Of a stretch of 64,000 bases of DNA, positions 49,445 through 60,320 are shown piece by piece. How positions within the stretch are numbered: position 1 is the stretch's first letter; every line of letters begins with the position of its first letter. The notes below the pieces were generated by a model. That model was not told where the DNA came from, did not search any database, and saw nothing but the letters and a program-made list of their open reading frames with translations. The stretch is from Marinilabilia salmonicolor JCM 21150. GTDB lineage: Bacteria > Bacteroidota > Bacteroidia > Bacteroidales > Marinilabiliaceae. A program made the position numbers and the translations under genes. The stretch covers positions 1 through 64,000 of the forward strand of contig NZ_AJKI01000063.1 of NCBI RefSeq assembly GCF_000259075.1, in the 5' to 3' direction.

Positions 49445-50893
49445 CTACCCAACGCTACCTTCAAGGCTTATTTCAAGCAACTTCTGGGCTTCCACCGCAA
49501 ACTCCATGGGCAACTGATTGATTACTTCCTTCACATATCCGTTTACAATCAGTCCAACAGCACTTTCAGTATCTATGCCACGCTGGTTGCAATAAAAAAT
49601 CTGATCCTCGCCAATTTTGGAGGTGGTAGCCTCGTGCTCAACTTTTGCCGAGTTGTTATTGATTTCCAGATAGGGGAAAGTATGCGCTCCGCATTTATCT
49701 CCCATCAGCAATGAATCGCACTGTGAGAAGTTTCTTGCATTTTCTGCTCTCTTGGAAACTTTTACAAGTCCGCGATAACTATTTTGGCTTTTCCCGGCAG
49801 AGATACCTTTTGAAACCACCAGACTTTTGGTGTTTTTCCCGAGGTGAATCATTTTTGTTCCGGTATCGGCCTGCTGATGATTATTGGTCAGCGCCACCGA
49901 GTAAAACTCTCCGGAAGAATGGTCACCCATCAGTACACAACTTGGATATTTCCAGGTAATGGCTGATCCTGTTTCCACCTGTGTCCATGATATTTTAGAA
50001 TAATCTCCTTTACAAAGACCACGTTTGGTAACAAAGTTATAGATTCCCCCCTTGCCGTCTTTGTCGCCAGGATACCAGTTCTGAACGGTTGAATACTTCA
50101 CCTCTGCCCGCTCCATAGCCACAATCTCGACAATGGCTGCGTGCAACTGATTCTCATCCCGCTGGGGAGCAGTACAACCTTCCAGATAACTCACATAACT
50201 GTCATCTTCGGCCACAATCAGAGTACGCTCAAACTGCCCCGTATTCATAGCATTGATGCGGAAGTAAGTAGATAATTCCACAGGACTGCGAACACCTTTG
50301 GGGATATAAACAAATGAACCGTCGGAAAAAACAGCAGAGTTCAATGCAGCAAAGTAATTGTCATTGGGTGGCACCACACTACCCAGATGCTTCTTCACCA
50401 GGTCGGGATACTCTTTAATAGCATCACTGATACTGCAAAAGATAATCCCTTTTTCAGCCAGCGTTTCCCTGAAAGTTGTCTTTACAGAAACACTATCCAT
50501 CACTGCATCTACAGCCACGCCTGCAAGCTGTTTCTGTTCCTCCAGAGGAATTCCCAATTTATCAAAAGTCGCCTTCAGTTCCGGATCCACGTCATCCATA
50601 CTATCCAGCTTGGGCTTACTCTTTGGTGCAGCATAATAAATAATATCCTGAAAATCAATTTCGGGAATATTCAGATGAGCCCAGTCCGGTGTTTCCATCT
50701 TTAGCCAGTTGCGATAAGCCTCAAGACGATACTCCAGCATAAATTCAGGTTCTCCTTTACGTTTGGAAATCTCCTTGATAACCTCTTCACTCAACCCTTT
50801 GGGCAGCATATCCATCTCAATGTCGGTATAGAAACCGTATTTATACTCCCCTTTGGTTACTTCTTCTAATATTTTATCTTGTTCTGTTGCCAT
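49445..50893 (-). CDS. sufB: Fe-S cluster assembly protein SufB
   Basis: The main scaffold subunit, 482 residues. It carries [40 protein letters not shown] (conserved Cys), [40 protein letters not shown] and the C-terminal block [20 protein letters not shown] then [15 protein letters not shown]. Length and motifs are standard. It opens the suf operon (B-C-D-S-E-T-queG on minus), from a TACCTTTG promoter overlapped on its -33 side by a perfect 19-bp palindrome. Confidence 0.99.
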
Positions 50894-50996: not shown

Positions 50997-51015
50997 ATTT
51001 AGATTAAATCTAAAT
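50997..51015. promoter_or_regulatory. Perfect 19-bp palindrome, putative operator of the suf operon
   Basis: ATTTAGATT-A-AATCTAAAT: 9-bp arms with a 1-bp centre. It starts 6 bp from the sufB -7 element and covers the -33 region, where a bound repressor would block transcription. I did not find a second copy in this window. The regulator type (iron or Fe-S sensing DtxR-, Fur- or Rrf2-like) is not identifiable from the site. Confidence 0.65.
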
Positions 51016-51087: not shown

Positions 51088-51095
51088 TATCTTTG
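51088..51095 (+). promoter_or_regulatory. Promoter -7 element of the thiL homologue
   Basis: TATCTTTG, perfect to consensus, 18 bp before the ATG at 51114. It rules out an earlier TTG start at 51093. No good TTTG is spaced upstream. Confidence 0.6.
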
Positions 51096-51113: not shown

Positions 51114-52166
51114 ATGAGTAAAACGGTTACACCACTATCAGAAGTAGGCCTTTTTGGTCTCATCGAACATATTGAAAAAACGTTTCCCAACAGACGAAGC
51201 AATACGTTATGCGGAATAATGAATGACGCCTCGATCACCGGTGCGGAAGGTGATGAATTGGCGGCCTCACATAATCTGATGCTGGAGGGCATTCATTTCG
51301 ATCTGACCTATTACCCCCTTCGTCATCTGGGATACAAAGCTGTAGTATCAGGGATCTCCGACGTCATAGCTTCCGGAGCTGTGCCCACACACATAAATCT
51401 GGCACTGGGTCTCAGCAGCAAGATGTCTCTGGAAGCCGTTGAATTACTTATGGAAGGTGTGGCAATGGCATGCCAGAAATATGATCTGGATCTGACAGGG
51501 TTCCGCCCTTCCTCATCGCTCACTGGGTTGACCATTTCAACTTCTGCATTTGGATTTGCTCAAAAAGAGAAAACCTTCAATCGCATTGGCGCCAAAGACA
51601 ATGACTTGATTTGTGTTACCGGAGACCTGGGTGCGGCCTTTATGGGCTTGCAACTATTGGAAAGAGAAAAACAGGTAATGAATAAGACCGGTCAGAACGA
51701 TCCGGATTTTGCAGGTTACGATTATTTGCTGGAAAGACAATTAAAACCGGAAGCTCGTATAGAATTACTGTCACAGTTACAGGAGGCGGCACTGGCTCCA
51801 ACATCAATGAGCCTTGTGCGGGAAGGACTTGCTGCTGCTCTGCTCAGACTCTGTAAAGCATCCGGAACGGGCTGCAATATTTATGAGAATAAGGTCCCCA
51901 TTGATCATGCCACCTCCACTCTTGCAGAGGAAATGGAGATAAACCCACTTGTCGCAGCACTTAACGGAGGGGAAGATTATGAAATTTTATTTACGTTGTC
52001 GCTGGAAGATTACCAGAAAATAGAAAAAGAAGGAAAAGGGCTGAAAGATGTATTTGTGATTGGCCATACAACTCCCGAATCGAAAGGGTATACCCTGGAA
52101 ACCAATGCCGGAGAAGAAATTGAATTGAAAGCCCGCGGATGGGGAAATGAAGATAACAAAAATTAA
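51114..52166 (+). CDS. thiL: ThiL-like protein with degenerate catalytic motifs
   Basis: A 350-residue protein that follows ThiL (thiamine-monophosphate kinase, PurM-like fold) end to end: LEGIHFDLTYYPLRHLGYKA, GISDVIASGAVPT, DLICVTGDLGAAFMGLQLLE, LLERQLKPEARIELL and AALNGGEDYEILFTL. ThiL enzymes normally have GDDAA near residue 37, DxLxEG near 53, GGDTT near 129 and (D/M)xSDG near 237, whose aspartates bind Mg-ATP. Here they read NDASI, HNLMLEG, TGFRP (128-132) and LVREG (234-238). One of each set is thus lost while the rest is well kept. Thiamine kinase activity is therefore doubtful. It may be a pseudo-enzyme or have a new role. The start is ATG 51114. Confidence 0.8.
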   Translation: MSKTVTPLSEVGLFGLIEHIEKTFPNRRSNTLCGIMNDASITGAEGDELAASHNLMLEGIHFDLTYYPLRHLGYKAVVSGISDVIASGAVPTHINLALGLSSKMSLEAVELLMEGVAMACQKYDLDLTGFRPSSSLTGLTISTSAFGFAQKEKTFNRIGAKDNDLICVTGDLGAAFMGLQLLEREKQVMNKTGQNDPDFAGYDYLLERQLKPEARIELLSQLQEAALAPTSMSLVREGLAAALLRLCKASGTGCNIYENKVPIDHATSTLAEEMEINPLVAALNGGEDYEILFTLSLEDYQKIEKEGKGLKDVFVIGHTTPESKGYTLETNAGEEIELKARGWGNEDNKN

Positions 52167-52276: not shown

Positions 52277-52858
52277 ATGTACGAGTTTATTTCCGGTAAA
52301 ATTGCACAAATCACCCCTGCCTATGCCATCGTTGAAAACAATGGAATAGGTTACTTTTTAAACATTTCGCTTTTCACATATGAGGCCCTGAAGGATCAAA
52401 ACGAGGTTCAGTTATACATCCACGAACACATTCGTGAAGATGCCTTTTTATTTTATGGATTTTTTGAGACCAGGGAAAGAGACCTGTTCCGGATGCTCAT
52501 CTCGGTTTCGGGCATTGGCTCTAACACGGCCAGAATGATGCTCTCATCTATGTCGCCCGATGAGTTGCACATAGCCATATCCACAGGAAATGTAAATCAA
52601 ATTAAAAGCATCAAAGGAATAGGACTGAAAACGGCACAGCGCCTGATTGTAGAATTGAAAGACAAAATAGGCAAGGCCGCTGAAGGAGAAAATTTCCTGA
52701 TGCCTGCAGACAATACAAAAGCAGAAGAAGCGTTATCTGCTTTAGTGATGTTGGGTTTTTCAAAAGGGCCATCGCAAAAAACAATTGATAAGATACTTAA
52801 GGAAGACCCCGGTCGCAAAGTTGAAGAGATCATCAAACTTGCTTTAAAAATGATGTAA
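52277..52858 (+). CDS. ruvA: Holliday junction branch migration protein RuvA
   Basis: It binds four-way junctions and loads RuvB. The 193-residue protein has the OB-fold domain (MYEFISGKIAQITPAYAIVE), two helix-hairpin-helix motifs (VSGIGSNTARMMLSS, about 74; IKGIGLKTAQRLIVELKDK, about 109) and a C-terminal RuvB-contact domain (AEEALSALVMLGFSKGPSQK). Length is normal. The sprA start is 28 bp downstream, so it is probably cotranscribed with it. Confidence 0.97.
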   Translation: MYEFISGKIAQITPAYAIVENNGIGYFLNISLFTYEALKDQNEVQLYIHEHIREDAFLFYGFFETRERDLFRMLISVSGIGSNTARMMLSSMSPDELHIAISTGNVNQIKSIKGIGLKTAQRLIVELKDKIGKAAEGENFLMPADNTKAEEALSALVMLGFSKGPSQKTIDKILKEDPGRKVEEIIKLALKMM

Positions 52859-52886: not shown

Positions 52887-55800
52887 ATGCACACAAAATA
52901 CAACAAACATAGCCTCATCTCCTTTGCCCTCCTTTCTCTCCTGGTTTTTACAGGAGCCACTCCCGGCATGGCCTCATCCCTCGATTCCCAACCCGGCGCA
53001 ACCATCCAGCGCCCCGATACCACCGAAACCTTCCGAATAGACCGCATTATTCATCCGGAAGAATTTTCAACCCCCGAAGATCAGGAAACATCTCCAATCA
53101 TTCCACAACCGGAAAACAGCTCCTACCGCGCAGAGTATGACCCTGCAACCGGGTTGATAAATTTGTTTAAAATGGTAGGCAGTGTTCCCGTAAAACTCCC
53201 ATACACCATGACCGTTGAGGAGTATCGCAAACAGGAGATGCGCAAATCAATGATGAGATACTGGGACGAAAACATGGCGGCAACAGAGGAAGACGGGGCC
53301 GGAGGAATTCAATTCGGAGCAGGACAGGCCGTTGAAAGTATTTTCGGAAGCAGTACCATCAATATTCGCCCCCAGGGAATTGCAGAACTTCAAATCGGCG
53401 TAAACCATACCCGCATCGACAACCCCACCCTTCAGGAGAGAATGCGGAAAACCACCACGTTCGACTTTCAGGAAAAAATTCAAATGAACATCACCGGAAA
53501 CATTGGTGATAAACTCCGCATGGGCATTAATTACAATACTGAAGCCACTTTTGATTTTGAAAACCAGATCAACCTGGAATACACCGGTCATGAAGATGAA
53601 ATTCTGCAAAAAGTGGAAGCTGGAAATGTAACCCTTCCTCTTCCGGGAACCTTGATTACAGGAAGCCAGAGTCTGTTCGGTGTCAAAACAGAGATGCAGT
53701 TTGGCCGCCTCACGGTAACTTCCATTTTTTCTCAACAAAAAGGAGAAACCTCCACCATGGATATCCAGGGGGGAGCCCAACAGCAGGATTTTGAGATAAG
53801 TGCTGATGAATACGATAAAAACCGTCACTTTTTTCTGGCCCATCATTTCAGAGAGCGATACAATGAGGCCATGAAGAATCTTCCCATTATCAATTCTCCT
53901 TTCAATATCACAAAAATTGAAGTCTGGATAACCAACCGCAGTAACGATTTTAATGAATCCAGAAACATCATTGCCTTTGCCGACCTGGCCGAAAGTGCCA
54001 ACAATATGGCCAACCCGGGCCTATGGACTGCCCAGCCGGGTGCCATCCCCTCCAATGAGGCCAACAACCTCTATGCCAACATGAACAGCACCTATTCAGG
54101 AGCAAGGGACATCAATCAGGTTTCATCTACTTTTGCATCGCTCGAAAATCAGGGTTTCAGAGGATCCAGGGAATATGAGAAAATAGAAAATGCCAGGTTG
54201 CTCAACAGTTCACAATATACGCTGCACAGCAAACTGGGTTATATATCATTAAACAGTCCTCTTGATGATGATGAAGTATTGGCAGTAGCCTTCGAATACA
54301 CTTACAACGGACAAGTATATCAGGTAGGAGAATTCAGTACCGGGGGTATTGAAGCGCCAAACAGTTTATATCTCAAACTTCTCAAAGGGACACTGCTCTC
54401 TCCCAGACTCAAAACCTGGGATTTAATGATGAAGAACATCTACGCCATTGGTGCCTATCAGGTTAGCCCTGAAGACTTTATCATGGATGTGGTTTATCTG
54501 GATGATTCCAAAGGTTCATTTATCAACTATTTCCCAGAAGGTCCTGAACCTGAAGATGGTGGGATCAACGGCGAACTTCTCATCGGCATCATGGGCCTCG
54601 ACAGGCTGGACAGCAATCAGGAACCATATCCCGACGGAACTTTTGACTATGTCCCGGGATACACCATTCTTCCGGAACAGGGACGGGTGGTTTTTCCTGT
54701 TGTGGAGCCCTTTGGCCGTCATCTGGAAGAAAAACTGACAGGCAACCAGGCGCTTATCGACAAATATGTATTTCATGCCCTGTACGATTCCACTCTGACC
54801 AATGCATCACAATTTGCCGAAAAAAACAAATTCAAACTTTCCGGAACCTACAAATCATCCGTAAGCAGTGAAATTTCTTTAAATGCATTCAACATTCCTG
54901 AGGGATCAGTTGTAGTTACCGCAGGAGGCATCAAACTTACCGAAAACCAAGACTACTCGGTAGATTATACCACCGGACGCATCCGCATCCTGAATGAAGG
55001 TCTTTTGGAGTCTGGGACCCCTATCCAAGTCTCTCTGGAGAGCCAGGAGATGTTTAACCTTCAGACCAAAACATTGCTGGGAACACACCTTAACTATCAG
55101 TTCAACAACGACTTCAACGTCGGAGCAACGCTGATGCATTTGCGCGAGCGACCGCTTACCCAGAAAGTCAACTTTGGTGATGAACCCATTGCCAACACCA
55201 TTTGGGGAATCAACACCTCTTATTATACCGAATCCAACGGATTAACCGCTCTCATTGATAAATTACCACTGGTGGAAACCACCACACCCTCTTCCATTTC
55301 ATTCGAAGGAGAATTTGCTCAGTTAATCCCCGGACATCCCAATGTCATTGACAAAGAAGGGACATCGTACATCGACGATTTTGAAGGCAGTGAAATCCCT
55401 ATTGATATCAAAAACTGGACAGCATGGAAACTTGCCAGTACCCCGCAGGGACAACCCGATATATTTCCGGAAGCTGCCAATATCAACGATTTGAGCTATG
55501 GATTTAACAGGGCAAAGATAGCGTGGTACGTCATTGACCCTCTCTTTTTGCGCAATAACAACCTTACGCCCGGCCACCTTCGCCAGAATTCTGACCAGCA
55601 ATCCAGTCATTTCGTACGCGAAGTATATGAAAAAGAGATTTTCCCTTACCGCGAAAGTGCCTATGGCGAGCCAACCAATATCCCGGTTCTCAACCTGGCC
55701 TATTATCCGGACGAACGGGGACCGTATAACTTCGATACCAATCTGACACAGGACGGGAAACTTGAAACCCCAAATCAACGTTGGGGAGGTATCATGCGGG

Positions 55801-58800
55801 AGATTCAGCAAAGTGATTTCGAATCTGCCAATGTAGAGTACATAGAATTCTGGGTCATGGATCCCTTTGTTTACGAAGACGGCCCGGAACAGGGAGGCGA
55901 TTTTTACATCAACCTGGGTAATATTTCTGAAGACATCCTTCGCGATTCGCGTAAATTCTTTGAGCAGGGGTTACCCGGGCCCGAGGATCCGTTTGAGGTG
56001 GACAGCACTGCCTGGGGATATGTTCCCACCAAGCAAAGTCTGGTCAATGCGTTCAGCAATGACCCGGCAACCCGATATGCCCAGGACGTCGGATTAAACG
56101 GCATGAATTCCGAAACGGAACGTTCCTTCTACCGGGACACACCGCATCCATTCCTTAACCTGATAGACAATTTGTTTGGTTCCGGTTTGCTAAGTGATGA
56201 GGCTTACCAAAAAATCATCAACGACCCGGCAGGAGACGACTATCACTACCACAGAGGCAGCGATTATGACCAGGCAGAAACAGGCATTCTCGACAGATAC
56301 AAAAATTTCAACAACCCGGAAGGAAACTCCATCCCTTCCGAATACTCCAACGAAAGCTACAGCACAGCGTCAACGACGCTCCCCGATGGAGAAGACATCA
56401 ACAGAGACAATACGCTAAGCGAAACAGAAAGCTACTTTCAGTACAAAATAAGCCTTCGCCCCCAAGATATGAATGTGGGAGAAAACTTCATAACCGACCA
56501 GATTGAATCCACTGTAACCCTGAAAAACGGAGAGACCAGCTCTGTAAAATGGTATCAGTTTAAAGTGCCGGTAAATGAACCTGACACAACAATAGGAGAA
56601 TTAAGTGACCTAAGTTCTGTCCGCTTCATGCGAATGTTTATGAAAAACTTTTCAGACACCGTAGTCCTCCGTTTTGCAACCATGGATCTGGTTCGCTCCG
56701 AGTGGAGAAAGTACAACGATGATTTGTTTGAGATTGATGATATGGTATCTCCGGTTCAAACCACACAATTCGAAGTGGCTACCGTAAACATCGAAGAAAA
56801 CGGCACCCGCAAGCCCGTGAATTATGTGCTTCCTCCCGGTATCGACAGAGTTATTGATCCGGGTAATCCACAAATCAGGCAACTCAACGAACAATCGCTG
56901 GTACTCAAAACCACGGACCTGGCCGGGAGTGATGCCCGGGCTGTTTACAAGACCCTGAACATGGACATGCGCCAGTACCGCCGCATAAAAATGGAAGTTC
57001 ATGCCGAAGAAGTCTCCGGTTATCCGTTGGAAGACGATGACATTGTAGCGTTTATCAGGTTGGGGACTGACTTCAGAAATAACTATTACGAATATGAAAT
57101 ACCTCTGAAGCTTACTCCGGAGGGGACCTATAGTAACAATTCAACCAGCGATAGATACATTGTCTGGCCGGAAGAAAACAGTTTTGACTTCCCCATAGAG
57201 TTGCTCCAACAAATAAAACTCAGACGCAATGATGAATTACGAAGCGGGAATCAGGATGTGGCCATTAACAAGAAGTTTTACACTGCCGACCCCGATAATC
57301 CGGATAATTACATTGGGATAAAAGGTAATCCGAGTCTGGCCAATGTCCGCTCTGTCATGATTGGTATTCGGAACAACACCATTGATTTAAAGTCCACGGA
57401 GGTATGGTTTAACGAACTCAGGCTGTCCGATTTCGACGAAGAAGGAGGTTGGGCTGCCAATGCGCGGGTAAATGTAAAACTGGCCGATCTGGGAAGCGTA
57501 TCCATGGCAGGAAAGGTGAACACCATTGGCTTTGGAAGCATAGAACAGAGCGTTAACGAAAGGAGCCGGGAAGATTACTATCAATACGATATCGCAACCA
57601 ACCTGGAGCTGGGCAAACTGCTGGGGCCAGAGTCAAGACTATCGGCTCCTATGTACATCAGCGCCAGCGAACAGGTTGCAACGCCTGAATACAATCCGCT
57701 GGACCCTGATATTACCATGGAGCAGGCACTGGACAATGCTTCATCACAGGCAGCAAGAGACAGCATCAAGGATTTATCTCAGGACCGGACCAGCCGAAAA
57801 AGCATCAATTTTACCAATGTCAGATTAAAACCCAAAGACAATCAACCAAAGATCTACGACCTTTCTAATCTGAGTGCCACCTATTCCTACAACGAATCGG
57901 AACACAAGGACGTCAAGACAGAGTATAAAATTGATAAAACCTACCGGGGAATTTTAGCTTACAATTTCTCCAGTCAACCCAAAATTGTAGAACCCTTTAA
58001 AAATATTAAAGGGGGGGTCTTCAAACTGATTCGTGATTTCAATTTCTACCTGCTCCCCAGTCAGATTAATTACCGATGGGAGTTGATGCGTGATTATTCA
58101 GAATCCCAACTGAGAAACGTTAACAACCCTACATTTAAGATACCTGTTTCGGTGCGAAAAGATTTTAACTGGAATCGCTACTTTGAAATGACCTACAATC
58201 TGACAAGGTCGCTGAAGCTTGATTTCCGCACCACAACCAATGCCCGTATTGATGAGCCCACAGGTGTTGTCAATAAAGACCGCTACCGCGATGAGTATGA
58301 ACTATGGAAAGATTCGGTGATGCGCAATATCATGTCATATGGCCGAACAACCAACTACCAGCACAACATCAATGCCAGTTACCGGTTGCCCATCAATAAG
58401 CTTCCTATGCTCGACTGGACTTCGGCAAATATCAATTACGGAGCTCAGTTTAACTGGCAACAAGGCCCCATCACTGAAGAACAGTACGAATGGGGTAATA
58501 CCATCAGAAACTCTAACACCATCCAGGGGAATGCACAATTCAACTTCACCGGGTTGTACAACAAAGTTGACTATTTGAGAAATCTTTCGCGTCCACAACA
58601 AAAATCAGGAGGAACCGAACAACTGAGATATACCAGTCACAGTCTGAATATTCAAAAAGACACTCCCCTGGAAATTGAGCACAAGCTTAACACCACTGAT
58701 GTTCAGGTACGCATATTTGACAGCAACGGACGCCCCGTTCAGGGAACTACCAGGGTCATTGACAACAACAAGGTTGCTTTTGTTGCCACGCGGGACATCT

Positions 58801-60320
58801 CCAATGCAAGAACATTGATTACAGGTCAACGAGAAACTACCACATCTCCCATAAAGATTGTTACAGACAATGTACTCAAACTGGCCACGGGAATTAAAAA
58901 CCTCTCGGTTTCCTACTCCTCCAATAATGGAACCACTCTTCCCGGATACCTGCCTAAATCAGGATTCCTGGGCAATCAAAATGTCCGCGGTATCAATGCA
59001 CCCGGTATTCCATTCCTTTTGGGCGTTCAGGACAGAGATTTCGCAATGACAGCGGTGGAAAATAACTGGCTGACCACCGACAGTACACTGAACACTCCAT
59101 ATATCATGACGCACACTGAAGATCTTAATATTCGTGCAACCATTGAACCGATCAAAGATCTCCGAATAGACATCACTGCCAATCGCCGGTATTCCAACAA
59201 TATGAATGAGTATTATCTCTTTAATGGAGAGCAGTTCAGAGGGGCGTTCAACACCATGGAGTCGGGAAGTTTTTCCATGAGTTTTATTACCCTGGCCACT
59301 GCCTTCGATAAAGTAGAAAAAAATGGTGATTACAGTTCACCTGCTTACGATCAGTTTTTAAAAAACCGGACTGAAATCGCCGAACGACTGGGTAGCGAAA
59401 GAGCAGGAACCACATATCCGGAAACAGAGTACTATCAGGAAAGAAACATTTCGGGACTGGCTTACAACCCGAATGGATACCCTGACAGAGGACATTCTGT
59501 AGAATCTGGCGTGGACGGATACAACCTCACATCAAGGGAAGTATTAATACCGGCCTTTCTTTCGGCCTATTCGGGCAAAAGTGCCGATAACATTTTCCTG
59601 GAAACATTCCCTTCATTAGCGTACATCAAACCCAACTGGCGAATTAATTACAGTGGCCTTTCCAAGATTAAATTCTTTAAAAAGTTTGTAAAATCTTTCG
59701 ACATCAGTCATGCATACACCTCCACCTATTCCATCGGAAATTATCAAACCAATCTGGAATGGCAGGAAAATGGCGACGGACTGAGTTTTGTAAGAGATGC
59801 ACAGGATAATTTTATTGCGAAATATCTGATTAGCGGCGTTACCATTACAGAACAATTTGCACCTTTCCTTCAGTTCAACATTACCTGGCCGGGCAACTTC
59901 AGCACCCGCGCCGAATACAAAAAGGGACGGATTCTTAACCTTAGCCTCAACAACAACCAGCTCATCGAAAATTACAACAACGAGTGGGTGATTGGAATTG
60001 GCTACCGATTTGACAAGATGGATATGATTCTGGGAAAATCGGACAATCAAACAAAAATATCCTCCGACCTGAACCTGAGAGCAGACATCTCTATGCGTGA
60101 AAGCTTTTCAATCATCAGAAAAATCCAGGAACGATCGAATCAAATGACAGCAGGACAAAAGATTACCACCCTGAAGCTGACGGCTGACTATGTCCTGAGC
60201 GACAGGTTTAACGTTCAGGTCTTCTACGACCGTCAGGTCAACAATCCCTACATTTCATCTTCCTATCCTACATTTAACACCAATGTGGGAGTAAGTTTCC
60301 GTTTCTCACTGGCTCAATAA
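52887..60320 (+). CDS. sprA: Type IX secretion outer-membrane channel SprA (Sov)
   Basis: The translocon pore of the T9SS, which moves gliding adhesins and C-terminally tagged enzymes across the outer membrane. The 2477-residue protein starts with a signal peptide (SFALLSLLVFTGATPGMA) and continues as a very large beta-barrel, with many amphipathic strands and a C-terminus ending in an aromatic (SFRFSLAQ). The family phrases SQQKGETSTMDIQGGAQQQD and GTSYIDDFEGSEIPIDIKNW (the SprA signature DDFEG) occur near 290 and 825. The size matches SprA/Sov. The T9SS core genes gldKLMN and porT are not in this window. The gene follows ruvA by 28 bp. Confidence 0.96.
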   Translation: MHTKYNKHSLISFALLSLLVFTGATPGMASSLDSQPGATIQRPDTTETFRIDRIIHPEEFSTPEDQETSPIIPQPENSSYRAEYDPATGLINLFKMVGSVPVKLPYTMTVEEYRKQEMRKSMMRYWDENMAATEEDGAGGIQFGAGQAVESIFGSSTINIRPQGIAELQIGVNHTRIDNPTLQERMRKTTTFDFQEKIQMNITGNIGDKLRMGINYNTEATFDFENQINLEYTGHEDEILQKVEAGNVTLPLPGTLITGSQSLFGVKTEMQFGRLTVTSIFSQQKGETSTMDIQGGAQQQDFEISADEYDKNRHFFLAHHFRERYNEAMKNLPIINSPFNITKIEVWITNRSNDFNESRNIIAFADLAESANNMANPGLWTAQPGAIPSNEANNLYANMNSTYSGARDINQVSSTFASLENQGFRGSREYEKIENARLLNSSQYTLHSKLGYISLNSPLDDDEVLAVAFEYTYNGQVYQVGEFSTGGIEAPNSLYLKLLKGTLLSPRLKTWDLMMKNIYAIGAYQVSPEDFIMDVVYLDDSKGSFINYFPEGPEPEDGGINGELLIGIMGLDRLDSNQEPYPDGTFDYVPGYTILPEQGRVVFPVVEPFGRHLEEKLTGNQALIDKYVFHALYDSTLTNASQFAEKNKFKLSGTYKSSVSSEISLNAFNIPEGSVVVTAGGIKLTENQDYSVDYTTGRIRILNEGLLESGTPIQVSLESQEMFNLQTKTLLGTHLNYQFNNDFNVGATLMHLRERPLTQKVNFGDEPIANTIWGINTSYYTESNGLTALIDKLPLVETTTPSSISFEGEFAQLIPGHPNVIDKEGTSYIDDFEGSEIPIDIKNWTAWKLASTPQGQPDIFPEAANINDLSYGFNRAKIAWYVIDPLFLRNNNLTPGHLRQNSDQQSSHFVREVYEKEIFPYRESAYGEPTNIPVLNLAYYPDERGPYNFDTNLTQDGKLETPNQRWGGIMREIQQSDFESANVEYIEFWVMDPFVYEDGPEQGGDFYINLGNISEDILRDSRKFFEQGLPGPEDPFEVDSTAWGYVPTKQSLVNAFSNDPATRYAQDVGLNGMNSETERSFYRDTPHPFLNLIDNLFGSGLLSDEAYQKIINDPAGDDYHYHRGSDYDQAETGILDRYKNFNNPEGNSIPSEYSNESYSTASTTLPDGEDINRDNTLSETESYFQYKISLRPQDMNVGENFITDQIESTVTLKNGETSSVKWYQFKVPVNEPDTTIGELSDLSSVRFMRMFMKNFSDTVVLRFATMDLVRSEWRKYNDDLFEIDDMVSPVQTTQFEVATVNIEENGTRKPVNYVLPPGIDRVIDPGNPQIRQLNEQSLVLKTTDLAGSDARAVYKTLNMDMRQYRRIKMEVHAEEVSGYPLEDDDIVAFIRLGTDFRNNYYEYEIPLKLTPEGTYSNNSTSDRYIVWPEENSFDFPIELLQQIKLRRNDELRSGNQDVAINKKFYTADPDNPDNYIGIKGNPSLANVRSVMIGIRNNTIDLKSTEVWFNELRLSDFDEEGGWAANARVNVKLADLGSVSMAGKVNTIGFGSIEQSVNERSREDYYQYDIATNLELGKLLGPESRLSAPMYISASEQVATPEYNPLDPDITMEQALDNASSQAARDSIKDLSQDRTSRKSINFTNVRLKPKDNQPKIYDLSNLSATYSYNESEHKDVKTEYKIDKTYRGILAYNFSSQPKIVEPFKNIKGGVFKLIRDFNFYLLPSQINYRWELMRDYSESQLRNVNNPTFKIPVSVRKDFNWNRYFEMTYNLTRSLKLDFRTTTNARIDEPTGVVNKDRYRDEYELWKDSVMRNIMSYGRTTNYQHNINASYRLPINKLPMLDWTSANINYGAQFNWQQGPITEEQYEWGNTIRNSNTIQGNAQFNFTGLYNKVDYLRNLSRPQQKSGGTEQLRYTSHSLNIQKDTPLEIEHKLNTTDVQVRIFDSNGRPVQGTTRVIDNNKVAFVATRDISNARTLITGQRETTTSPIKIVTDNVLKLATGIKNLSVSYSSNNGTTLPGYLPKSGFLGNQNVRGINAPGIPFLLGVQDRDFAMTAVENNWLTTDSTLNTPYIMTHTEDLNIRATIEPIKDLRIDITANRRYSNNMNEYYLFNGEQFRGAFNTMESGSFSMSFITLATAFDKVEKNGDYSSPAYDQFLKNRTEIAERLGSERAGTTYPETEYYQERNISGLAYNPNGYPDRGHSVESGVDGYNLTSREVLIPAFLSAYSGKSADNIFLETFPSLAYIKPNWRINYSGLSKIKFFKKFVKSFDISHAYTSTYSIGNYQTNLEWQENGDGLSFVRDAQDNFIAKYLISGVTITEQFAPFLQFNITWPGNFSTRAEYKKGRILNLSLNNNQLIENYNNEWVIGIGYRFDKMDMILGKSDNQTKISSDLNLRADISMRESFSIIRKIQERSNQMTAGQKITTLKLTADYVLSDRFNVQVFYDRQVNNPYISSSYPTFNTNVGVSFRFSLAQ

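Follow-up and report, generated by a model that had tools for sequence, protein, structure and literature searches.

The window analyzed here, a stretch of 64,000 nucleotides from Marinilabilia salmonicolor JCM 21150, contains a pseudo-thiL gene (hereinafter T1, like its counterparts in other genomes; positions 51114–52166, plus strand, ATG start, TAA stop) that encodes a protein of 350 amino acids, an assignment based on the open reading frame, the match to the TIGR01379 profile and an AlphaFold (AF2) model. As an earlier note on this DNA had stated, the frame is intact and of that length. T1 is divergent from a gene that we take to be sufB (49445–50893, minus strand), recognized by its open reading frame and adjacency, and is followed on the plus strand by two genes recognized by their reading frames and synteny, presumably ruvA (52277–52858) and a gene that we consider to be sprA-like, encoding a giant outer-membrane protein (52887–60320); both are downstream neighbors of T1 in the family that includes the genome of the window (hereinafter f1).

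A profile search shows that T1 matches TIGR01379 (thiL) with a score of 220 bits, above the cut-off of 184.15; both Pfam AIRS and AIRS_C match it as well, and the solved structures nearest by sequence are ThiL structures. The AF2 model of T1 (mean pLDDT 86.8, pTM 0.84, with an input alignment of 14) adopts the two-domain AIRS fold of ThiL: the top structural matches of this predicted model are PaThiL and AbThiL, with Z of 32.7 and rmsd of 2.4–2.7 over about 300 residues (for PaThiL, 8yku, Z 32.7 and rmsd 2.4 with 298 residues aligned), and HypE, SelD and PurM rank below these. A SEPHS1-QRICH1 structure also appears, by its title, among the structural matches listed.

The roles of the residues in the ThiL active site were taken from the available text of the report on PaThiL (PMC13254938), and the residues of T1 were mapped onto PaThiL by motif. 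The motifs that the earlier note had quoted (GIMNDASI, HNLMLEGIHF, LTGFRPSSS, SLVREGL and NGGEDYE) are all present. In the alignment, M-N-D at codons 36–38 (51219–51227) stands for G-D-D of PaThiL (Gly28-Asp29-Asp30), so that the last aspartate alone is kept and the equivalent of Asp29 is asparagine; asparagine at codon 54 (51273–51275) replaces the metal-binding Asp47; the metal-binding Asp75 is kept at codon 83 (51360–51362), with Asn80 of the NLSD motif changed to glycine; F-R-P at codons 130–132 (51501–51509) replaces G-D-T, the ribose, metal and adenine contacts; L-V-R-E-G at codons 234–238 (51813–51827) replaces D-x-S-D-G; and GGEDYE is kept at codons 285–290 (51966–51983), all on the plus strand. 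Among the five metal-coordinating aspartates of PaThiL (Asp30, Asp47, Asp75, Asp122 and Asp211), two are retained in T1 (residues 38 and 83) and three are lost (Asp47 to Asn54, Asp122 to Arg131, Asp211 to Leu234). The ATP contacts Gly28, Gly121 and Thr123 are absent as well, being replaced by Met36, Phe130 and Pro132, respectively; in the available text of PMC13254938, Thr123 contacts the adenine and the backbone of Gly121 the ribose. Furthermore, Ser213-Asp214 corresponds to Arg236-Glu237, and Asp219 and His222 to Ala242 and Arg245, so that two basic residues, R131 and R236, occupy the places of a metal-binding aspartate and a serine, respectively. The TMP-contacting His54 of PaThiL is kept in T1 as His61. 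The claim that most of the catalytic aspartate motifs have been replaced is confirmed, with the refinement that the equivalents of Asp30 and Asp75 are kept. The motif columns of T1 align with those of canonical ThiL, and no aspartate was found at a shifted position. Judged from the alignment, it is mainly the ATP and metal half of the site that is dismantled.

Among the 71 genomes of the f1 family that were searched, 65 yielded a T1 match and 6 did not; excluding a C-terminal fragment (G014), 64 T1 genes could be read through the motifs, of which 45 are canonical and 19 degenerate. The order T1-ruvA-sprA is found in 18 of the 19 degenerate loci and, with few exceptions, also in canonical f1 loci with long enough flanks; because this synteny is common to both groups, degenerate T1 is the vertical copy, and T1 represents the thiL that f1 inherited vertically from its ancestor. 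With the motif columns removed, the 19 degenerate sequences form one clade with an SH-aLRT support of 97 in a tree of 65 rows from which odd rows had been left out; the support is just 61 in a 96-row tree that includes the long-branch row G044. The clade divides into clade a, with 8 rows from Marinilabilia, Anaerophaga and one further genus, and clade b, with 11 rows; the mean identity between the two is 46%. The equivalents of Asp47, Asp122, Asp211, Thr123 and Gly121 are kept in none of the 19 (at codon 54, aspartate is found in 0/19), the equivalent of Asp30 is kept in all 19 and that of Asp75 in 16. A sequencing fault, which was considered as a cause, is ruled out by the absence of the equivalents of Asp47, Asp122 and Asp211 from all 19 related genes.

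The search for a second, intact thiL that the earlier note had proposed identifies such a gene (T2) in the genome of the window (G000, contig C7, 131717–132721); it encodes 335 amino acids with complete aspartate motifs, scores 305 bits with TIGR01379 and is about 31% identical to T1. The same genome contains two ThiE matches and four TPP-riboswitch matches, and no match to thiamine pyrophosphokinase (TPK), so that T2 is the only recognized TPP maker besides T1. An Rfam scan of the window at the gathering score yielded one tRNA and nothing else, that is, no TPP riboswitch before T1. In three genomes that combine T2 with a canonical T1 (G020, G070 and G080), T2 is located near thiE and has a TPP riboswitch upstream on the same strand, a position that supports its being a functional gene of the pathway. 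We infer from its intact motifs that T2 makes TPP in place of T1. All 19 genomes of f1 with a degenerate T1 carry T2 with intact aspartate motifs (in G016, G021 and G031, T2 has AGEDY for GGEDY), and none of the 19 has a TPK match; ThiE is matched in 18 of them, once slightly below the cut-off, and the exception is a genome that is 76% complete. Among the 45 f1 genomes with a canonical T1, 10 have T2 or TPK. In G020, G070 and G080 (loci L068, L110 and L111), the second thi group consists of a TPP riboswitch, a high-scoring thiE and T2; thiE genes in the same score range are found also in many genomes with a degenerate T1, an arrangement that resembles a salvage operon later split.

The degenerate T1 genes of f1 show signs of maintenance. 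All 19 frames are open over at least 344 codons; the single stop flagged, in G033, lies outside the TIGR01379 match, which is itself stop-free. Of eight pairs compared, two are saturated; in the other six, for which dS is finite, dN/dS ranges from 0.028 to 0.186, values of dS above 1 being rough. Already within Marinilabilia, dS is near or above 1. Between G000 and G004, T1 is 91% identical, T2 81% and RuvA 95%. The replacement residues are conserved across both sub-clades: Pro132 is found in 19/19, Phe130 and Arg/Lys131 in 18/19 each, Glu237 in 16/19 and Arg/Lys236 in 14/19, so that a new motif, F-[R/K]-P, is common to the clade. Canonical T1 has 104 near-invariant columns, 64 of which retain their residue in 17 or more of the 19 degenerate sequences; 12 of the 14 named active-site columns fall below this level, compared with 28 of the other 90 (p = 1.5e-4). 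Two properties expected of a pseudoenzyme are thus found, namely loss of catalytic residues throughout the clade (19/19) under purifying selection and an enzymatic need covered by another gene (T2 in 19/19, as judged from its intact aspartate motifs). Special retention of T1-specific residues, considered as a footprint of a second function, shows up as a tendency: T1-specific conserved columns are kept in 19 of 28 cases and universal ThiL columns in 25 of 51, which is not a significant difference (p = 0.16), so that such a footprint cannot be claimed.

Degenerate T1 genes are also present in other families of the order. A first draw of 24 genomes outside f1 comprises 19 with canonical T1, two with degenerate T1 (G037 and G044, each with one ThiL match and with TPK), two with short sequences (G049 and G053) and one for which the sequence was not retrieved (G047). 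T2 was then sought across the order in 295 genomes, and T1 was read in 30 chosen ones, 7 because they matched T2 and 23 because their best match was weak, including G049 and G053. These comprise 8 degenerate T1, 4 canonical T1 accompanied by T2, 4 canonical or partly read T1 without T2, 7 fragments, 2 other AIRS proteins and 5 genomes without T1; the choice favors degenerate T1, and the counts do not represent a frequency across the order. The eight belong to families f2 (G189 and G286), f9 (G195 and G292), f91 (G261), f87 (G344) and f55 (G124 and G322); T1 of G322 is degenerate in part only, with Asp47, Asp122 and Asp211 kept. Seven of the eight genomes have TPK, and G124 has T2. Altogether, ten degenerate T1 genes are found beyond f1, in five families (f2, f9, f55, f87 and f91), nine with TPK and no T2 match and one with T2.

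Another source of TPP is accordingly recognized in 29 of 29 genomes with degenerate T1 (28 of 28 without G322) and in 15 of 64 with canonical T1, the latter being unselected draws (10/45 from f1 and 5/19 from outside, where G042, one of the five, has a T2 fragment); the Fisher value for this association, 2e-13, ignores kinship and is not a significance figure. A quick-search tree of 75 T1 rows, 46 of them canonical, gives five changes of state, four of which are forced by well-supported branches. These data suggest about five independent losses of the kinase site, each beside another TPP source and often with the gene retained. In T1 numbering, none of the 29 degenerate sequences keeps the Glu13, Asn80 or Thr132 of canonical ThiL, and Asp54 and Asp234 are missing from 28; the replacement residues vary between lineages, F-R/K-P being found in the f1 clade only. 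Maintenance as measured by dN/dS covers the f1 family, and in the other lineages it is indicated by open frames. The T1 genes of f9 at loci L140, L163 and L166, from three genera that all have TPK, lack the first aspartate motif and have open frames of about 340–354 codons. T1 was not found in G181 and G361, genomes with T2 or TPK, so that the role of T1 would be dispensable in some genomes; G160 and G347 also gave no match, in a search in which the T2 query alone was used.

The earlier note had also placed T1 divergent from suf, beside a likely operator and with a promoter of its own. The head-to-head arrangement with sufB is stronger than a local accident: it is found in all 8 loci of clade a, in the degenerate T1 of f9 (G195 and G292) and in the canonical T1 of seven further families (G042, G043, G050, G056, G058, G158 and G162), that is, in nine families. 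The survey of suf neighbors covered 60 re-fetched loci and 4 older ones, five of which have less than 1 kb of upstream flank (G030, G048, G041, G119 and G042). No suf gene is present in the flanks of the 11 clade-b loci or of the 16 re-fetched canonical f1 loci (mostly about 10 kb upstream, in some cases much less); upstream of the canonical T1 of two f1 genomes, G008 and G084, SufD/SufS-like or SufS-like matches are detected at 1e-5. Loci with sufBCD and thiL head-to-head are L207, L208, L224, L225 and L229–L233.

Between sufB and T1 lies a palindrome of 19 bp, ATTTAGATTAAATCTAAAT (50997–51015), a probable operator that corresponds to the likely Fe-S operator of the earlier note; the genome has no other exact copy of it. 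It occurs at the same place in all 8 clade-a loci, with a longer spacer in three of them. In the sufB-T1 gap of six of the seven canonical families, a site with 2–4 mismatches from ATTTAGATTAAATCTAAAT is found, which is equalled in 0–2 of 200 shuffles; the palindrome or similar sites are located at 50997–51015 of the window and in loci L225 and L229–L233. No such site was found in the gap of G158 or in the f9 gaps of 66–75 bp. Because suf is missing near the degenerate T1 of all 11 clade-b loci, the suf link cannot be the whole explanation. The view of the suf neighborhood as an accident of clade a is overturned by sufB beside canonical T1 elsewhere, by the wider flanks and by the palindromes in the gaps. 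The suf-thiL pair is thus an old divergon that carries a probable operator; most of f1 lost the arrangement, and clade a retained it. The palindrome ATTTAGATTAAATCTAAAT is likely to be the operator of a suf regulator; for the role of T1, the divergon is a lead and no proof. As for the promoter, the consensus of the Bacteroidetes -7 box is TAnnTTTG, and a possible box of this kind, TATCTTTG (51088–51095, plus strand), is read before T1; by eye, such a box is present in 7 of the 8 clade-a genomes, including that of the window. A sigma-70 scan gave 3 hits compared with a shuffle mean of 3.7, with no excess.

Taken together, these observations are best compatible with T1 being the ancestral, vertical thiL, which would probably have lost the TMP-kinase activity and been kept for a non-kinase role. 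The loss of the kinase activity taken by itself appears very likely, and the suggestion of the earlier note that the activity is gone while the gene is maintained agrees, as far as sequences can tell, with the intact T2, the clade-wide loss of ATP and metal residues and the low dN/dS. With its ATP and metal site gone, T1 would have no TMP-kinase activity; T2 or TPK would synthesize TPP in its stead; and the protein, kept by selection as seen in f1, would serve a non-kinase role, the existence of which we infer; it would either bind, with no need of Mg-ATP, a thiamine phosphate or an anion like it, or serve as a partner in a structural or regulatory capacity. Our guess for the f1 clade is thiamine phosphate or another anion bound free of Mg, because the residues on the TMP side are kept and two basic residues are new; binding of thiamine phosphate need not be general to degenerate T1, given that in f9 even His61 is lost (replaced by aspartate). 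Given that several lineages show the decay independently, the role may predate it, as has been concluded for SPS1 (PMC4561486) and fungal Dis3L2 (PMC8097288), and may already have been present in the active ThiL of Bacteroidales. With somewhat less than even confidence, this can be extended to a dual-function ThiL of Bacteroidales, a TMP kinase with a second, perhaps suf-linked, role exposed by the takeover by T2 or TPK, the Marinilabilia clade having developed a new, conserved Mg-independent anion site (F-R/K-P and R/K-E-G).

Several other explanations have to be weighed against the retention of T1 for a non-kinase role. That T1 still phosphorylates TMP, by means of an unusual site poor in metal, appears extremely improbable: the score above the TIGR01379 cut-off and the equivalents of Asp30 and Asp75, kept in 19/19 and 16/19, would fit such an enzyme, but Asp47, Asp122, Asp211 and Thr123 are lost in 19/19, T2 is present in the same genome and much the same losses recur alongside TPK. 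The opposite extreme, in which T1, made redundant once T2 or TPK had arrived, has no function and is heading for loss, would account for the restriction of degenerate T1 to genomes with another TPP source (29/29) and for the absence of a T1 match from some genomes with T2 or TPK. Such slow decay is hard to reconcile with dN/dS of 0.028–0.186, dS among Marinilabilia being close to 1 or higher, with frames open over at least 344 codons in 19/19 (the G033 stop being outside the TIGR01379 match) and with the conservation of P132 (19/19), F130 and R/K131 (18/19 each) and E237 (16/19) across both sub-clades; plain pseudogene decay is disfavored, and we regard it as highly improbable.

If the substrate pocket were kept and the new basic residues catalyzed a different reaction, for instance that of a phosphatase or transferase, the conserved, non-random replacement residues would be explained, and the superfamily, with HypE, SelD and PurM, does encompass diverse chemistry; a new enzyme is nevertheless unlikely, given that the ATP contacts are lost, that neither a new conserved nucleophile nor a complete metal site was noticed in T1 and that F-R/K-P is confined to the f1 clade, the other degenerate lineages having replaced these residues differently. 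T1 might also heterodimerize with the intact ThiL as its regulatory or stabilizing subunit, with the active site at the dimer interface: ThiL active sites are made of two protomers, according to the available text of PMC6416309 and PMC13254938, and T2 accompanies all 19 degenerate T1 of f1. However, the two proteins share only about 31% identity, and nine degenerate T1 elsewhere occur in genomes with TPK and no T2 match, which disfavors the T1-T2 heterodimer as a general answer; we regard this reading as quite unlikely. A role tied to suf, of which the head-to-head genes and the shared palindrome would be the trace, would fit the arrangement in clade a (8/8), f9 (G195 and G292) and seven canonical families and the similar palindromes in the gaps of six of the latter. 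Such an Fe-S partnership seems very unlikely, because suf is missing from the flanks of 11/11 clade-b and 16/16 re-fetched canonical f1 T1, the 66–75 bp gaps of f9 lack the palindrome and an old divergon requires no shared function, thiamine synthesis itself involving Fe-S enzymes.

Compared with characterized ThiL (TIGR01379; AaThiL, 3C9R-U; AbThiL, 5CM7; PaThiL, 8YKS/8YKU), T1 shares the fold, the sequence family, GGEDYE, the histidine of the TMP site and two metal-binding aspartates, and differs in three of the five metal-binding aspartates, the adenine threonine, the ribose glycine and the Ser-Asp of SDG, as well as in the presence of a second, intact ThiL in its genome. Literature searches in open-access papers found no description of a degenerate or pseudo-ThiL, and T1 is a probable pseudoenzyme, of a kind that is apparently new for ThiL. 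A similar pattern is known elsewhere in the AIRS superfamily: metazoan SPS1 (SEPHS1), a member of the SelD/SPS group, makes no selenophosphate, and its catalytic site was changed repeatedly in independent lineages under strong conservation; according to the available text of PMC4561486, its authors deduced that the ancestral enzyme had a second function, which they tested by rescue in flies. The likeness extends to the pattern, attributed in that study to a second function that the active enzyme already had; unlike the animal genes, which arose by duplication as far as that text describes, T1 is a vertical copy decaying beside a ThiL encoded elsewhere or TPK, and its second function is putative. 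The fungal Dis3L2/Ssd1 pseudonucleases, with at least four independent active-site losses and a retained second function in the available text of PMC8097288, differ from T1 in fold and function and share with it the evolutionary pattern alone.

What emerges from the genomes is a clade of pseudo-ThiL proteins marked by a new, conserved motif, and a pattern that recurs within the order. T1 scores above the NCBIfam thiL cut-off but very probably makes no TPP, so that reconstructions of vitamin B1 metabolism that count thiL genes can misread genomes with genes of this type. That the same gene lost its active site in several lineages, always in genomes with a further TPP source, amounts to a natural experiment. 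The pattern suggests that the ThiL of Bacteroidales does more than phosphorylate TMP, and the degenerate T1 are genes with which a second role of ThiL can be tested free of kinase activity. For SPS, the available text of PMC4561486 describes how a similar pattern led its authors to a function other than the enzymatic activity.

Two further T1 genes deserve mention. In G119, the genome of which contains T2, T1 (L153) has GGGDYE for GGEDYE and is otherwise canonical. In G020, which has both T2 and TPK, T1 (L033) forms a long branch, with NLSD changed to TIAD and the remaining motifs intact, and may represent an early stage of decay.
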